64,000 nt of DNA, taken from the NCBI GenBank assembly GCA_028693235.1, contig JAQUVW010000004.1:248001-312000 (forward strand), given 5' to 3'. The DNA comes from Candidatus Gastranaerophilales bacterium (GTDB lineage: Bacteria; Cyanobacteriota; Vampirovibrionia; Gastranaerophilales; Gastranaerophilaceae). Both the position numbers and the translations under genes were made by a program. The notes beneath the pieces are model-generated. The model was not told the origin of the DNA and made no database searches. It worked only from the letters and a program-made list of their open reading frames with translations. This document shows, piece after piece, positions 35,050 to 46,007 of the stretch. Position 1 is the first letter of the stretch, and the number at the start of each line of letters is the position of its first letter.

Positions 35050-35928
35050 ATGCCAATCACAGTAAATACAAATGTTTCGGCATTAATTGCCCAAAACAAC
35101 TTAATTGGAGCTAACACAAGTTTGAACAAAGTGTTGCAACAATTATCAACAGGTTTAAGAATTAACAGTGCAGCAGATGACGCAGCAGGCTTAGCAATTT
35201 CCGTAGGTATGGAAAACCAAATTAAAGGTAACGAAAGAGCCGCTACAAACATTCAAGACGGTTTGAGCCTTATGCAAACAGCTGAAGGCGGAATGAACAT
35301 CGTCAACGAGCATTTATCCAGAGTTAGAGAACTTTGTGTTCAAGCAGCCAACGAAATCTACAATACACAAAACAAAATCTCTATTTTGAATGAAATGAAA
35401 CAAAGAATAAGTGATATTGATATCCAAGCCCAATCAATTAACTTCAACAACATACCGCTTTTAGACGGTACCAAAGAACACTTGTTCCTTCAATTCGGTG
35501 CAGGCACTGATCCGGCTTTGAACTCAATCGACATCGGACCAACCTTAACCAACATGAGAATTGATGATACCGGCTTAAATGTCGAACTAAAAGTTACCAC
35601 AGGTCCTGCTACCGGCGATTATGTGAATATTGCCGATTGGGATCCGACTGAAATTATGGGCTATATGGACCAAATTGACGTCGCTGTGAACAAAATCACT
35701 ACTGATAGATCAATGTTAGGTGCTTATTCTAACAGATTAGAAGCAAATAAAAGCAACTTAACTTCATTGAACGAAAATACAGAAGAGTCTAAATCCAGAA
35801 TCATGGATGTTGACTTAGTTAAAGCAAGTACAGAAATGATTAAGTATCAAATCTTGCAACAATCTACAACAAGCGTATTGGGTCAAGCTAACCAAGTTCC
35901 TCAATTGGCACTTCAACTGCTTAAATAA
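35050..35928 (+). CDS. Flagellin
   Basis: A 292-residue structural protein of the flagellar filament. The conserved N-terminal D0/D1 part (INTNVSALIAQNNL, LSTGLRINSAADDAAGLAIS) and C-terminal D1/D0 part (RLEANKSNLTSLNENTEESKSRI, ending QVPQLALQLLK) are both complete. The exposed middle domain is very small (about residues 150-200), so this is a minimal flagellin. It is a single gene under a sigma-28 promoter with a terminator hairpin after it. Chaperone and cap genes are not adjacent. Confidence 0.97.
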   Translation: MPITVNTNVSALIAQNNLIGANTSLNKVLQQLSTGLRINSAADDAAGLAISVGMENQIKGNERAATNIQDGLSLMQTAEGGMNIVNEHLSRVRELCVQAANEIYNTQNKISILNEMKQRISDIDIQAQSINFNNIPLLDGTKEHLFLQFGAGTDPALNSIDIGPTLTNMRIDDTGLNVELKVTTGPATGDYVNIADWDPTEIMGYMDQIDVAVNKITTDRSMLGAYSNRLEANKSNLTSLNENTEESKSRIMDVDLVKASTEMIKYQILQQSTTSVLGQANQVPQLALQLLK

Positions 35929-40540: not shown

Positions 40541-41182
40541 TTATTCTTGTTTAGCAGTATTAGTTTCTAAATCTTCTTTTTGAGTATTTATCTCATCGTC
40601 ATCTTCGTCTATTGTTTCAAGAGAAAACAATTTGAATATTTTTTTTGTAGTTTTCTTTAAAAAGTCCGATATTTTTTTATTGATGAAATTTTTCATCTCA
40701 CCATATAGGTTTGCAAGTTTTTCCACCACTTGCAAAATCATATTTCGAACATCTTGTATAAAAGATTGAATTTTATTGAGTAACTTAGGTATCTGTTCTA
40801 AAACAGTAAGCAAAGGAGTAACTATAACAGCATTTAAAGCCATTATCCCTTTCGCTAACACTGGAGGAAGTGAATTTTGCAATATCTGAATTGATTGACG
40901 AACATTGCTAATATAAGTGGTAATATTTTTAGATATTTGTGCTAAAAGTTGTTGTTGCTGAGCCTCTATCTGGGCTTCGGCTCTTGCTTGGGATTGTTTC
41001 ATCATAACGCCCATAGCAAAACATTGCGACCAAGTCATTTCACCTGATTTTCTTACATTATTTGATTGCTTAGTGCTTCCACCACCACCCATTCCGTTAC
41101 AAATCGGGCACGCTCCCATTGGCAAGCCATGTGGGCACGTTCCTATTCTTGGCTGATTTATTCCTGTTATAGGTTGAGGCAT
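40541..41182 (-). CDS. Unknown protein with N-terminal cysteine motif, 213 residues
   Basis: I do not recognise it. The N-terminus carries CPHGLPMGACPICNGMGGGG, a C-x8-C-x2-C pattern that could bind zinc. A helical, glutamine-rich middle (about 60-85) is followed by long amphipathic helices (about 90-180) and an acidic tail. No clear membrane helix was seen, though SLPPVLAKGIMALNAVIVTPLL is hydrophobic. It is the first gene of the unknown operon and lies about 70 bases downstream of a riboswitch-like RNA. Confidence 0.72.
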   Translation of the reverse strand: MPQPITGINQPRIGTCPHGLPMGACPICNGMGGGGSTKQSNNVRKSGEMTWSQCFAMGVMMKQSQARAEAQIEAQQQQLLAQISKNITTYISNVRQSIQILQNSLPPVLAKGIMALNAVIVTPLLTVLEQIPKLLNKIQSFIQDVRNMILQVVEKLANLYGEMKNFINKKISDFLKKTTKKIFKLFSLETIDEDDDEINTQKEDLETNTAKQE

Positions 41183-41249: not shown

Positions 41250-41345
41250 GTTCTTGACGGTTCGCCGCATCAAAAAGCAAGTAAAGAGTTTTCCGACTAT
41301 ACGGCTGCGGTCCAGTCAGGGAATTGCACCCTATTTCCTCATTAG
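41250..41345 (-). ncRNA. Riboswitch-like structured RNA (cobalamin-like core)
   Basis: In the leader of the unknown operon the minus strand has a hairpin with GGTGCAATTCC in its loop region (stem AGGG/CCCT, 41318-41332), then CCGCAGCCGTA (41310-41300), then paired GACT/AGTC arms and a CGG-CGAA-CCG hairpin near 41255. The order GAGGAAA, GGTGcAATTCC, ACTG, CCGCagCcGTA is like the core of cobalamin riboswitches, but I cannot find a B12 box further on. The region is more GC-rich and structured than its surroundings. It could be a variant riboswitch or another RNA class. Confidence 0.45.
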
Positions 41346-41395
41346 AATTATGATTTCATAAAAATAGGCTTATAACAATATTTTATGTAGATATA

Positions 41396-42271
41396 TTACC
41401 GTTGTAATACATACTGTTTTAAGCGAGAACGGACTTCTTTTTCGACCTCAAGAATATCTGTTTTTTTTACACACAGGTCCTTTTGTATAATACGCAAATT
41501 CAAGGCAAGATTTTCTAATTCTTCAGGATTTAAACTGAGTTTTTGGTCAGTTCCTTTCATATTTTTATCAAGCGTAAAATGACGTTCAATATACTCGGCC
41601 CCTAATGCATATGCTGCTATATCTTGAAGAATACCCAAATGATGCCCCGAAAAGCCAATTGCTTTAACTTGACCTGAATATTCATTTTTTAATCTTGATA
41701 TTTCTAGCAACGCACTATCGCCTATCGGCACAGGATATGCAGACGTGCAAGCATATAAAATTATATTTTGCTTTTTATATTTAAAAGATTTTAAAATTTC
41801 TTTCTCTTCTTCTTTTGTCGTCATTCCCAATGAGATATGAATTTCTCCGTTATAATTCTTATCCAAATAATGTAACAACTCAAAATCTAAATTGTTCGCC
41901 GAGCTGACTTTTATCATAACAGGATTTAAAGTCAAAACTTCCTTCAAAGATTGCCTATCAAAAACTGAAGTTGAATAAACAAAACCCTTAGTTTCACAAT
42001 ATTTTTTTATAACAAAATGCTCTTCAATAGAAAATTCGAGAAATTCTTTATGTTTTCCGTATGTATCACCAAAACTGTTTTCAGGATTAGGATGTGACGA
42101 ATCGTAGAGTTGCTTTGATAAAATTAACTTAGGACATCTCTTTTGAAATTTAATTATGTCAATTTTAGCGTTTTGCGAAAAATTAGAAATTGAATCTATC
42201 ATCTTTTTCACTGTTTCTATTGACCCGTTGTGATTACCACAAAATTCAGCTATTATTTTTAAATTTCTCAT
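41396..42271 (-). CDS. NeuB-family sialic acid synthase-like protein
   Basis: A 291-residue TIM-barrel enzyme of the NeuB family, which condenses phosphoenolpyruvate with an N-acetylmannosamine-type sugar. It has IIAEFCGNHNGS at the N-terminus, the DIIKFQK strand, VSSANNLDFELL, LYACTSAYPVP and FSGHHLG segments, and the IERHFTLDKNMKGTDQKLSL motif near the C-terminus. It stops at about the point where the C-terminal SAF (antifreeze-like) domain of usual NeuB (about 340 residues) would begin, so that domain is missing. It follows the sialyltransferase-like gene by 44 bases. NeuA and NeuC are not in the window. Confidence 0.85.
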   Translation of the reverse strand: MRNLKIIAEFCGNHNGSIETVKKMIDSISNFSQNAKIDIIKFQKRCPKLILSKQLYDSSHPNPENSFGDTYGKHKEFLEFSIEEHFVIKKYCETKGFVYSTSVFDRQSLKEVLTLNPVMIKVSSANNLDFELLHYLDKNYNGEIHISLGMTTKEEEKEILKSFKYKKQNIILYACTSAYPVPIGDSALLEISRLKNEYSGQVKAIGFSGHHLGILQDIAAYALGAEYIERHFTLDKNMKGTDQKLSLNPEELENLALNLRIIQKDLCVKKTDILEVEKEVRSRLKQYVLQR

Positions 42272-42315
42272 AAAAAGCCCTTATTAAGCACTTATTAAAT
42301 AATTATAAATTATTT

Positions 42316-43419
42316 TTACTTATTTTCCAATTTAATTTTTTCATTTAACAATCTTTCGACTCGATAATTTTTAACAGGAATATATATTAATATGTTAGAA
42401 ATCGGAACAGAAAGAATTACTGATGAATTTATACAAATAACCTTATCTGGCATTAAACCAAATAACACAAACATTTCAAATGGGATATTATAGTCTATTG
42501 GAATCATATCTGGATATAACTTAGATAAATTTTCATCAAAATATGAATGTTTCCCCTGATGAGGATGCTCTTTATAAAACCAATTATAAGCTTTATTTTC
42601 AAGCAAAAATTGTTTTTCTCCGGAACGAATCTCTTTTAAATATTTCAAATTTTCATCGACTTTTGCTTCATTATCCCAAAAGCCTGTTAAAAATATTATA
42701 GAAGGATGCTTCTTAAAATAATTTTTATACTTTTTGTAATCAAATCCTGTTAACCGGTATAATTTTTTCTTATCTCTTGCCGAAAGAGAAGCTGCTGTAT
42801 TCTCTAAATCGAAAGGAATTGTTTTATAATTAGCTAGGGCGTTCTTTTGCCTATTGCAATAAAAATCTTTTTCACAATTTTTACTAGATACTCTTTCAAA
42901 CATTGATACGTGTATTATAGTTTTTTCTCTATATTTAGAAAATATTTTAAGGTTGTTTAACCCTCCAGGAAGTGCCATTCGTCCCATGGAATCTTCATAT
43001 AAATGAATTTCTTGTATTTTAGAATAAGGAATCACTGACAAAACAGCCATGATTTCATTTCGATGGTTCAAATTAAGATGCAAAATAAAATTTGATTTTT
43101 TATGTAAATTATAAAATTTTTTAAGATCATTATCTAAAGTTGCCGGTTGCTTGCTTTTGGCTATTTCTTCAATTGTATTATATCTTTTTAGATTTATTCT
43201 ATTTTTAAGCGGATAAAATCGATACCAGAACACAAATTTCGGAGATTTTTCAGGCACCTTTGAATAAGAAATCATCTCTTGCAAGGTGGCAAAAGTTGCA
43301 GTATCAATATAAATATAAGCTGTCTTTTGACTCTGATAATAAAATAGCAACTTTATCGCAAAAATTATTATCAAAAAAGATATTGAGCTTATAAGAAATA
43401 TAATGTTATACTTTTTCAT
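42316..43419 (-). CDS. GT80-type sialyltransferase, membrane-anchored
   Basis: A 367-residue glycosyltransferase. After an N-terminal membrane anchor (about 6-28) the sequence follows the GT80 family, known from Pasteurella PmST1 and Photobacterium enzymes, from start to end: KTAYIYIDTATFATL (32-46), HLYEDS (139-144), YKEHPHQGK (282-290), and IPFEMFVLFGLMPDKV (312-327) with INSS (330-333). Compared with PmST1, the catalytic aspartate aligns with D143, the CMP-binding histidine with H285 and the serine pair with S332-S333. It would transfer sialic acid from CMP-sialic acid to surface glycans. The linkage cannot be predicted. There is no ribosome site, and a TATAAT lies 5 bases before the start. 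Confidence 0.82.
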   Translation of the reverse strand: MKKYNIIFLISSISFLIIIFAIKLLFYYQSQKTAYIYIDTATFATLQEMISYSKVPEKSPKFVFWYRFYPLKNRINLKRYNTIEEIAKSKQPATLDNDLKKFYNLHKKSNFILHLNLNHRNEIMAVLSVIPYSKIQEIHLYEDSMGRMALPGGLNNLKIFSKYREKTIIHVSMFERVSSKNCEKDFYCNRQKNALANYKTIPFDLENTAASLSARDKKKLYRLTGFDYKKYKNYFKKHPSIIFLTGFWDNEAKVDENLKYLKEIRSGEKQFLLENKAYNWFYKEHPHQGKHSYFDENLSKLYPDMIPIDYNIPFEMFVLFGLMPDKVICINSSVILSVPISNILIYIPVKNYRVERLLNEKIKLENK

Positions 43420-43466: not shown

Positions 43467-44738
43467 TTGAATTTTCAAACAGATAAATCAAAAAAATTTA
43501 TCATCTACGGTGGAACTGCCTGTGCTATTATGGACACACTTGTTGTCGGCCCGACAATTTTGGCTTACGCCCTAATTCTTGGGGCATCTCCGATTTTACT
43601 GGGTTTTATCTCCGCAATTCCTTATTTGGGGAATTTAATGCATTTACTGGCTGCCTATCTTATTGAAAAAGGCAAGTCAGTAAAACAAATCTCTGTTATT
43701 TCCGCTTTTGCAAGTAGACCCTTTTATCTTTTTATCGCACTAATCGCACTTTTGCCAAAGAACAAATACTCTCTATTTCTACTCATTTTATTTTTATTGT
43801 GTGCATATCTTATAGGAGCAATTTCAGGAGGTGCTTGGCTACCGTGGATGAAAATGCTTATAAACAAAAATGAATTAGGAACCTTCTTTTCTATCCGTTT
43901 TAAATACATGATGATTGCAAAAACGATTGTTTTCATTTTAGTTTATCTGTTTTTAACAGCTGTAAAGCATTATTATCCAGATTTCGGAATGTACATTTAC
44001 TCGGTTTTGTTTTTATTAGCTTTTATCGTCGGGATATATGGAGCTTATACACTAACACAAGTAGAAGACACCCATATAATTGCAGATAAAGATAACATGT
44101 TTTTCACAAAATTCAAAAAACTATTTACCGAAAAGTCTATAAAAACAGTTCTTTCAAAATTAGGATATTTGAATTTCGTTGTAAATTTTGCAACTCCTTT
44201 TATAGGAATTTACCTTTTGCAAAGTTTAAAAATCGGTTTAAATAATGTAATTTTATTAACCTTAATAAATCAACTTTCTTATATTTCAATAATTAATATT
44301 GTAGGGAAACACGAAGACGAAAAAGGTTCTGACTGCTTAGTGAGAAAGGCTATGCTTACATTAATCCTTAGCTTAGTATTAATTATCACCACTATATATA
44401 TTCCGACTACCAACATTGTAAAAATAAGCTTATTCCTTTTTATCGCTCATATTCTTATCGGATTATTTACTGCTGTTACAAACCTTGTTAATAACAACAT
44501 ACCATTGCGAGAATTACCGGATAAAATGTCTTCTATCTATCTGGCATCTGCAACGATAGCAAAAGCAATAATGACTGCCATTGGCTCAATTAGTGCCGGA
44601 TTCATATTCGCAATCTGCACTAAAATCCCAAATGTTCAAGTACATTGGACTTTGTTTTTCTTGATTTCTATTTTCATATCACTACTGTGTTTTATTATGT
44701 ACAAAAAAACACCAAACGCTAAATCCAATAATTTCTAG
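43467..44738 (+). CDS. MFS transporter
   Basis: A 423-residue integral membrane protein with about 12 hydrophobic helices, of the major facilitator superfamily. A conserved-looking segment YGGTACAIMDTLVVGPTILAYALILGASPILLG spans helix 1 and the first loop. The N-terminal half contains ISGGAWLPWMKMLI. The start is probably TTG 43467, since the next ATG lies after the first helix. It is divergent from the sialyltransferase gene across 47 bases. The substrate is unknown. In this context it could handle a sugar or a surface-glycan precursor. Confidence 0.82.
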   Translation: MNFQTDKSKKFIIYGGTACAIMDTLVVGPTILAYALILGASPILLGFISAIPYLGNLMHLLAAYLIEKGKSVKQISVISAFASRPFYLFIALIALLPKNKYSLFLLILFLLCAYLIGAISGGAWLPWMKMLINKNELGTFFSIRFKYMMIAKTIVFILVYLFLTAVKHYYPDFGMYIYSVLFLLAFIVGIYGAYTLTQVEDTHIIADKDNMFFTKFKKLFTEKSIKTVLSKLGYLNFVVNFATPFIGIYLLQSLKIGLNNVILLTLINQLSYISIINIVGKHEDEKGSDCLVRKAMLTLILSLVLIITTIYIPTTNIVKISLFLFIAHILIGLFTAVTNLVNNNIPLRELPDKMSSIYLASATIAKAIMTAIGSISAGFIFAICTKIPNVQVHWTLFFLISIFISLLCFIMYKKTPNAKSNNF

Positions 44739-45931: not shown

Positions 45932-46007
45932 TGGTGCGCCAGCCGCGATTCGAACGCGGGACCTATCCCTTAAAAGGGGAGTGCTCTACCTGCTGAGCTA
46001 CTGGCGC
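45932..46007 (-). tRNA. tRNA-Lys (UUU)
   Basis: 76 bases including an encoded CCA. The acceptor stem GCGCCAG/CTGGCGC, the D arm (GCTC...GAGC), the anticodon loop CTTTTAA with anticodon TTT, and the T arm with TTCGAAT are all present. The outermost anticodon-stem pair is a C-U mismatch. A terminator follows. Confidence 0.96.

Follow-up and report, generated by a model that had tools for sequence, protein, structure and literature searches.

Here, we present an analysis of a GT80-type sialyltransferase gene that directly adjoins a gene for a nonulosonic-acid synthase in a genome of the order Gastranaerophilales. Gene content, size, and GC suggest a Gastranaerophilales-type member of the Cyanobacteriota. 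Judging by its sequence, the encoded 367-residue protein is a bona fide GT80 sialyltransferase, i.e., a divergent, membrane-anchored member of a known family in an unexpected lineage. We suggest, with reasonable though not full confidence, that the lineage acquired this anchored GT80, paired it with an accessory synthase (NeuB1), and feeds it by an internal 9-phosphate route, thereby sialylating a cell-surface glycan. The bacterium, presumably a gut inhabitant, probably makes its own sialic acid or the closely related Kdn and attaches it to a surface sugar. The window, i.e., the whole stretch of 64,000 nucleotides that was analyzed, contains the following genes:

41396 to 42271, minus strand: NeuB1, a predicted SAF-less nonulosonic-acid synthase of 291 aa (PF03102, E 9.4e-59)
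42316 to 43419, minus strand: predicted GT80 sialyltransferase of 367 aa, with a membrane helix (residues 2-29) and a two-lobed GT-B catalytic domain
43467 to 44738, plus strand: membrane protein of 423 aa with ~11 hydrophobic segments by hydropathy, divergent from the GT80 gene

The GT80 and NeuB1 reading frames are both open at these coordinates, and GT80 lies upstream of NeuB1 at a distance of 44 bp. The GT80 protein matches the Pfam family PM0188 (PF11477) with 34.4 bits (E 1.5e-8), above the cut-off of 25 bits, and the gene scored 35.9 bits in a six-frame search with this profile. Using phmmer, solved GT80 enzymes matched in both lobes (2zwi, E 1.1e-11; 4v2u, 4.2e-9; 2z4t, 4.2e-8), and GT80 enzymes were the only solved structures that gave meaningful E-values with the 367-aa protein. 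In an end-to-end alignment, the protein is 20-24% identical to five bacterial GT80s, and D143, W248, H285-P286, E315, and S332-S333 are invariant. The catalytic residues of PM0188, i.e., Asp141, His311 (HP motif), Glu338, Ser355, and Ser356 (PMC4202792), align with D143, H285, E315, S332, and S333, and H119 is the HMMER-aligned counterpart of His112. The D/E-D/E-G motif of the N-terminal lobe reads E142-D143-S144, with the Asp retained but not the Gly, and the protein has E-HP instead of G-HP. The AlphaFold model (pLDDT 66, pTM 0.66) leans toward GT80 because its input was a six-row alignment including GT80 sequences; based on Foldseek, its best 24 matches are all GT80 (E from 5.8e-16 for 2ihj to 6.5e-13), and the first non-GT80 fold follows only at 9e-5. 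Using VIA, GT80 structures reached Z 22.5-25.9 over ~315 residues (25.9 for 2ex1) vs 12.9 for the next fold. The hydrophobic N-terminal helix spans residues 2-29 in the model, with a hydropathy peak at 6-24. The sequence evidence suffices for the GT80 assignment without the model. An earlier, sequence-only reading of this DNA had described an end-to-end GT80 alignment with the Asp, His, and Ser-Ser residues and an N-terminal membrane anchor, and our analyses bear out both descriptions.

Most known GT80 enzymes are from Pasteurellaceae or marine Vibrionaceae, and the family provides standard catalysts for making sialosides. PmST1/PM0188 of P. multocida (2ex0-2ihz), PdST of P. dagmatis (4v2u), and the Photobacterium enzymes (2zwi, 2z4t, 4r9v) have in common with the window's GT80 both GT-B lobes, the Asp base, the HP motif, the Glu, the Ser-Ser pair, and an N-terminal membrane or export segment. 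However, the window's GT80 differs from these enzymes in that (i) it is only 20-24% identical to them and has E-D-S instead of D-D-G; (ii) its N-terminal helix does not look cleaved, whereas known GT80s have a lipoprotein or signal peptide; and (iii) it is paired with NeuB rather than NeuA and its host is not a gammaproteobacterium. To our knowledge, no enzyme activity has been described at this degree of divergence (~20-24% identity).

NeuB1 ends at residue 291 and has no Pfam match to a SAF domain, in agreement with the sequence-only reading, which had the protein stop where this domain would start. Aligned to N. meningitidis NeuB (2wqp), NeuB1 keeps E25, K53, Q55, K129, S132, H215, E234, H236, and D247, which we take to be the active-site residues, as E9, K41, Q43, K121, S124, H210, E229, H231, and D242. 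The score against NeuB_NnaB (TIGR03569) is 165 bits, i.e., below the equivalog cut-off of 399.65, in part because the SAF part is missing; therefore, TIGR03569 does not assign the substrate. The best solved match of NeuB1 is the pseudaminic acid synthase 8h2c (5.6e-24). All 33 NeuBs of the order that we compared (six NeuB1-type and 27 NeuB2-type) have a length of 288-311 aa, and we conclude from these lengths that a SAF-less NeuB is the norm in the order and not peculiar to NeuB1. A solved structure of a SAF-less NeuB barrel is that of the Leptospira sialic acid synthase (6ncs, 290 aa), and NeuB1 and the second synthase of the genome, NeuB2, are of the same type. 6ncs is the best match of NeuB2 (2.8e-41), whereas NeuB1 falls into a separate clade that is less common.

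The window lacks a gene for the CMP-sialic acid synthetase NeuA, as had been stated from the sequence alone, but the genome does not. Searching the window's own genome (2.1 Mb, seven contigs, 98.8% complete), we found a NeuA-like protein, P0009, on contig C2 (G000:C2:376865 region), which matches PF02348 with 88.8 bits (E 4.6e-25) and has CMP-Neu5Ac synthetases as its best solved matches (6ifd, 5.6e-28; 1eyr, 1.5e-24). Its top-scoring NCBIfam model is PseF with 140 bits, below the cut-off of 205.7. KdsB, GlmU, and IspD were also among the cytidylyltransferase matches and were set aside as not NeuA. On contig C3, the gene for NeuB2 (P0011) overlaps by 8 bp, in an operon, with that for the HAD phosphatase P0010, of which the top NCBIfam model is the Kdn-9-P phosphatase (113 bits vs a cut-off of 180; E 1.2e-32) and the top PDB match is 3e81, a B. 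thetaiotaomicron HAD protein. NanE, encoded at C2:156141, scores 261 bits with its NCBIfam model, above the cut-off of 189, and a gene for a ROK kinase adjoins it. By contrast, a NeuC-type hydrolysing epimerase was not found in this genome, in which the sole PF02350 (Epimerase_2) gene is WecB-type (TIGR00236, 529 bits, vs NeuC, 109 bits with a cut-off of 235.9), and neither was AGE (PF07221). Because a NeuC-type epimerase is missing while NeuA, NeuB2-HAD, and NanE are present, a 9-phosphate route is the best explanation of the supply; this route, of the type known from mammals and B. thetaiotaomicron, is complete on paper, whereas the genome lacks the NeuC route that is usual in bacteria. Thus, of the two genes for which the sequence-only reading had proposed a genome search, we found a neuA-like but not a neuC-type one, and a genome devoid of NeuA-like enzymes, which it had listed as grounds for rejection, is not what we found. 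The supply route that it had left open is mostly answered by P0009, NeuB2 with its HAD, and NanE; the sugar may be Neu5Ac, Kdn, both, or another nonulosonic acid.

B. thetaiotaomicron and Prymnesium parvum produce Kdn via a 9-phosphate route (PMC6200933). The B. thetaiotaomicron pathway, with the BT1714 synthase and the BT1713 Kdn-9-P phosphatase (3e81), likewise combines a NeuB-type synthase with a dedicated C0-type HAD; unlike in that pathway, the HAD gene in the genome analyzed here overlaps the synthase gene, and NanE would allow the synthesis of Neu5Ac as well. We know of no GT80 in the B. thetaiotaomicron pathway.

In a tree, NeuB1 and NeuB2 split with 100/100 support. NeuB2 is followed by a HAD phosphatase in nearly every locus seen, in several families of the order, and its neighborhood (a TPR protein and an aspartokinase) is common to the window's own genome and the relative G032. 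NeuB2-HAD belongs to the core of the order. NeuB1 is known from six genomes so far. In three relatives (G016, G051, and G078), its gene either overlaps with or directly borders on that for a polysialyltransferase-like PF07388 protein of 460-480 aa, in the following pairs:

L053:8070-10332: NeuB1 and PF07388 protein
L069:4780-7094: NeuB1 and PF07388 protein
L071:4323-6600: NeuB1 and PF07388 protein

The G016 protein matches PF07388 at 7.6e-25, the genome search gave 90, 84, and 107 bits for the three proteins, and the family is present in 25 of 191 genomes of the bacterial family. As in the window, the orthologous NeuB of these pairs (44-46%) directly adjoins a sialyltransferase-type gene; however, their transferase is PF07388 (GT38-like) and lies downstream of NeuB, whereas that of the window is GT80 and lies upstream of NeuB1. 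In G034, NeuA and HAD come next after NeuB1, and in G033, they lie ~4 kb from it on the same strand. Because GT80, PF07388, or NeuA and HAD are found beside it, NeuB1 appears to provide the synthase step in accessory modules for sialic acid, in which the transferase can be exchanged; we count three transferase settings. It may even be, although we would lean against it at present, that an exchangeable module, composed of NeuB1 and a transferase from unrelated families (GT80; PF07388 in relatives), draws on the core pathway (NeuB2-HAD, NeuA, NanE), and that gut commensals outside the classic pathogens thus have a surface decorated with host-like sialic acid, Kdn, or polysialic acid.

The NeuB2-HAD operon at L010:9934-11302 and L072:8568-9936 shows order-wide conservation of both sequence and setting and has no transferase beside it; its product would be a core nonulosonic acid. 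Near NeuB1 in G033 and G034, two related proteins of 277 and 296 aa with 37% identity (L051:7329-8162 and L052:5456-6346) match no family or PDB entry and are candidates for a new transferase. P0007 and P0008, the genes of which adjoin NeuB1 in G033 and lie close to it in G034, were considered as GT42-like transferases but have no Pfam, PDB, or profile match and were left unassigned.

PF11477 was detected in one of 191 family genomes and in one of 386 phylum genomes, both times the window's own genome, and a direct protein search in 288 genomes of the family gave no other real GT80 match. Four other family genomes yielded weak matches (E 2.7e-4 to 0.009), which span 60-90 residues within other proteins or frames and were rejected; the strongest of them (G187, locus L054) lies in a serine-recombinase-like ORF. 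Single-sequence searches of genome contigs, IMG/VR, plasmids, and phages did not find a close GT80 relative. A scan of 84,980 species, which was profile-guided with two short motifs and not exhaustive, returned GT80 only in the gammaproteobacterial taxa Photobacterium, Pasteurella, Bisgaard taxon 45, and Shewanella, besides two IMG/VR contigs. GT80 (26.9% GC) and NeuB1 (30.9%) have the lowest GC contents of 15 genes measured around them, the others being at ~32-38%. The 423-aa membrane protein has no Pfam or NCBIfam family match and no real homologue among 96 other genomes of the family, and its single-sequence model (pLDDT 46) is unusable; because it is as rare in the lineage as GT80, the three genes may form one accessory segment. 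We consider it likely that GT80 was acquired horizontally. Att-like repeats flanking the GT80 segment were not found in the window, and the tRNA-Lys at 45932-46007 was rejected as an integration site, its 3' end not being repeated in the window. A limited literature search did not turn up any work on Melainabacteria that dealt with sialyltransferases or nonulosonic acids.

On two IMG/VR contigs (L077:1-3745 and L078:1-2767), GT80 adjoins a tyrosine-type integrase, which suggests that mobile elements can carry GT80 genes. Between NeuB1 and the gene at 40541-41182 (minus strand), we also noticed an AdoCbl-II (B12) riboswitch-like aptamer at 41278-41356 (minus strand; 36.0 bits, with the gathering score at 36.5; local-search E 3.5e-7), which would be the leader aptamer of that gene; such an aptamer upstream of a protein of this kind is unexpected.

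According to our model, NanE would convert GlcNAc-6-P to ManNAc-6-P, with Man-6-P as an alternative start; NeuB2 and NeuB1 would condense ManNAc-6-P or Man-6-P with PEP to Neu5Ac-9-P or Kdn-9-P; the KdsC/Kdn-9-phosphatase-like HAD would remove the phosphate; the NeuA-like cytidylyltransferase P0009 would form the CMP-nonulosonic acid; and GT80 would transfer the sugar, for which Neu5Ac and Kdn are the most likely candidates, to a galactose-type terminus of a glycan on the cell surface. From the presence of these genes and the conservation of families and residues, we infer that the enzymes work together, as well as the sugar, the acceptor, and the surface display. The model is supported by the NeuB1 orthologues beside a PF07388 gene (three genomes) or NeuA and HAD (two genomes), by two Pasteurellaceae relatives in which NeuA directly adjoins GT80, and by the Kdn route of the same kind in B. 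thetaiotaomicron and P. parvum (PMC6200933). Several observations argue against it. The genes for GT80, NeuB1, NeuB2-HAD, NeuA, and NanE are spread over four separate places in the genome; P0009 also matches PseF; P0001 and P0011 score under every NCBIfam equivalog cut-off; and the ROK kinase neighbor of NanE may equally fit a catabolic or glucokinase context. Moreover, the catalytic domain of GT80 could, by its N-terminal anchor, be periplasmic while CMP sugars are cytosolic, a question that applies to the known GT80s too.

The PseF match of P0009, the match of NeuB1 to the pseudaminic acid synthase 8h2c, and a flagellin gene in the window (35050-35928), 6.4 kb away, would fit a GT80 that uses another nonulosonic acid of the pseudaminic or legionaminic type, e.g., in flagellin or capsule decoration. 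We consider this unlikely: the NeuB model beats PseI for both synthases (NeuB1, 165 vs 134 bits; NeuB2, 246 vs 204 bits), the LegG/NeuC hydrolysing step is missing given that the sole Epimerase_2 gene is WecB-type, and a 9-phosphatase, with which NeuB2 shares an operon, is not needed in the Pse and Leg routes. Somewhat less probable still is that the donor is scavenged, with host Neu5Ac taken up and only NeuA and GT80 used. The NeuA-like enzyme, a habitat that we infer to be host-associated and rich in sialic acid, and a possible role of NanE and the ROK kinase in Neu5Ac/ManNAc catabolism would agree with scavenging; however, two NeuB genes with intact residues, one of which is operonic with a 9-phosphatase and order-wide, argue that de novo synthesis is the rule. 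The single occurrence in the lineage, the lowest GC content of the neighborhood, and the replacements E-D-S for D-D-G and E-HP for G-HP could also point to a decaying or repurposed acquisition, e.g., a GT80 that only hydrolyzes CMP-sialate or is unexpressed, but the full-length open frame, the retention of every catalytic residue, and the GT80-like modeling of both lobes make this the most improbable of these alternatives. Rather, we favor the 9-phosphate route feeding an anchored GT80. Host mimicry, which the sequence-only reading had associated with sialylated surfaces, is a plausible conjecture.

A divergent, membrane-anchored GT80 in another phylum makes for a wider family. Moreover, GT80 is paired with NeuB here and replaced by a polysialyltransferase-like gene in relatives, which makes it testable whether abundant non-pathogenic residents bear host-like sialic acids, and the route in question for such residents would be via the 9-phosphate rather than NeuC.
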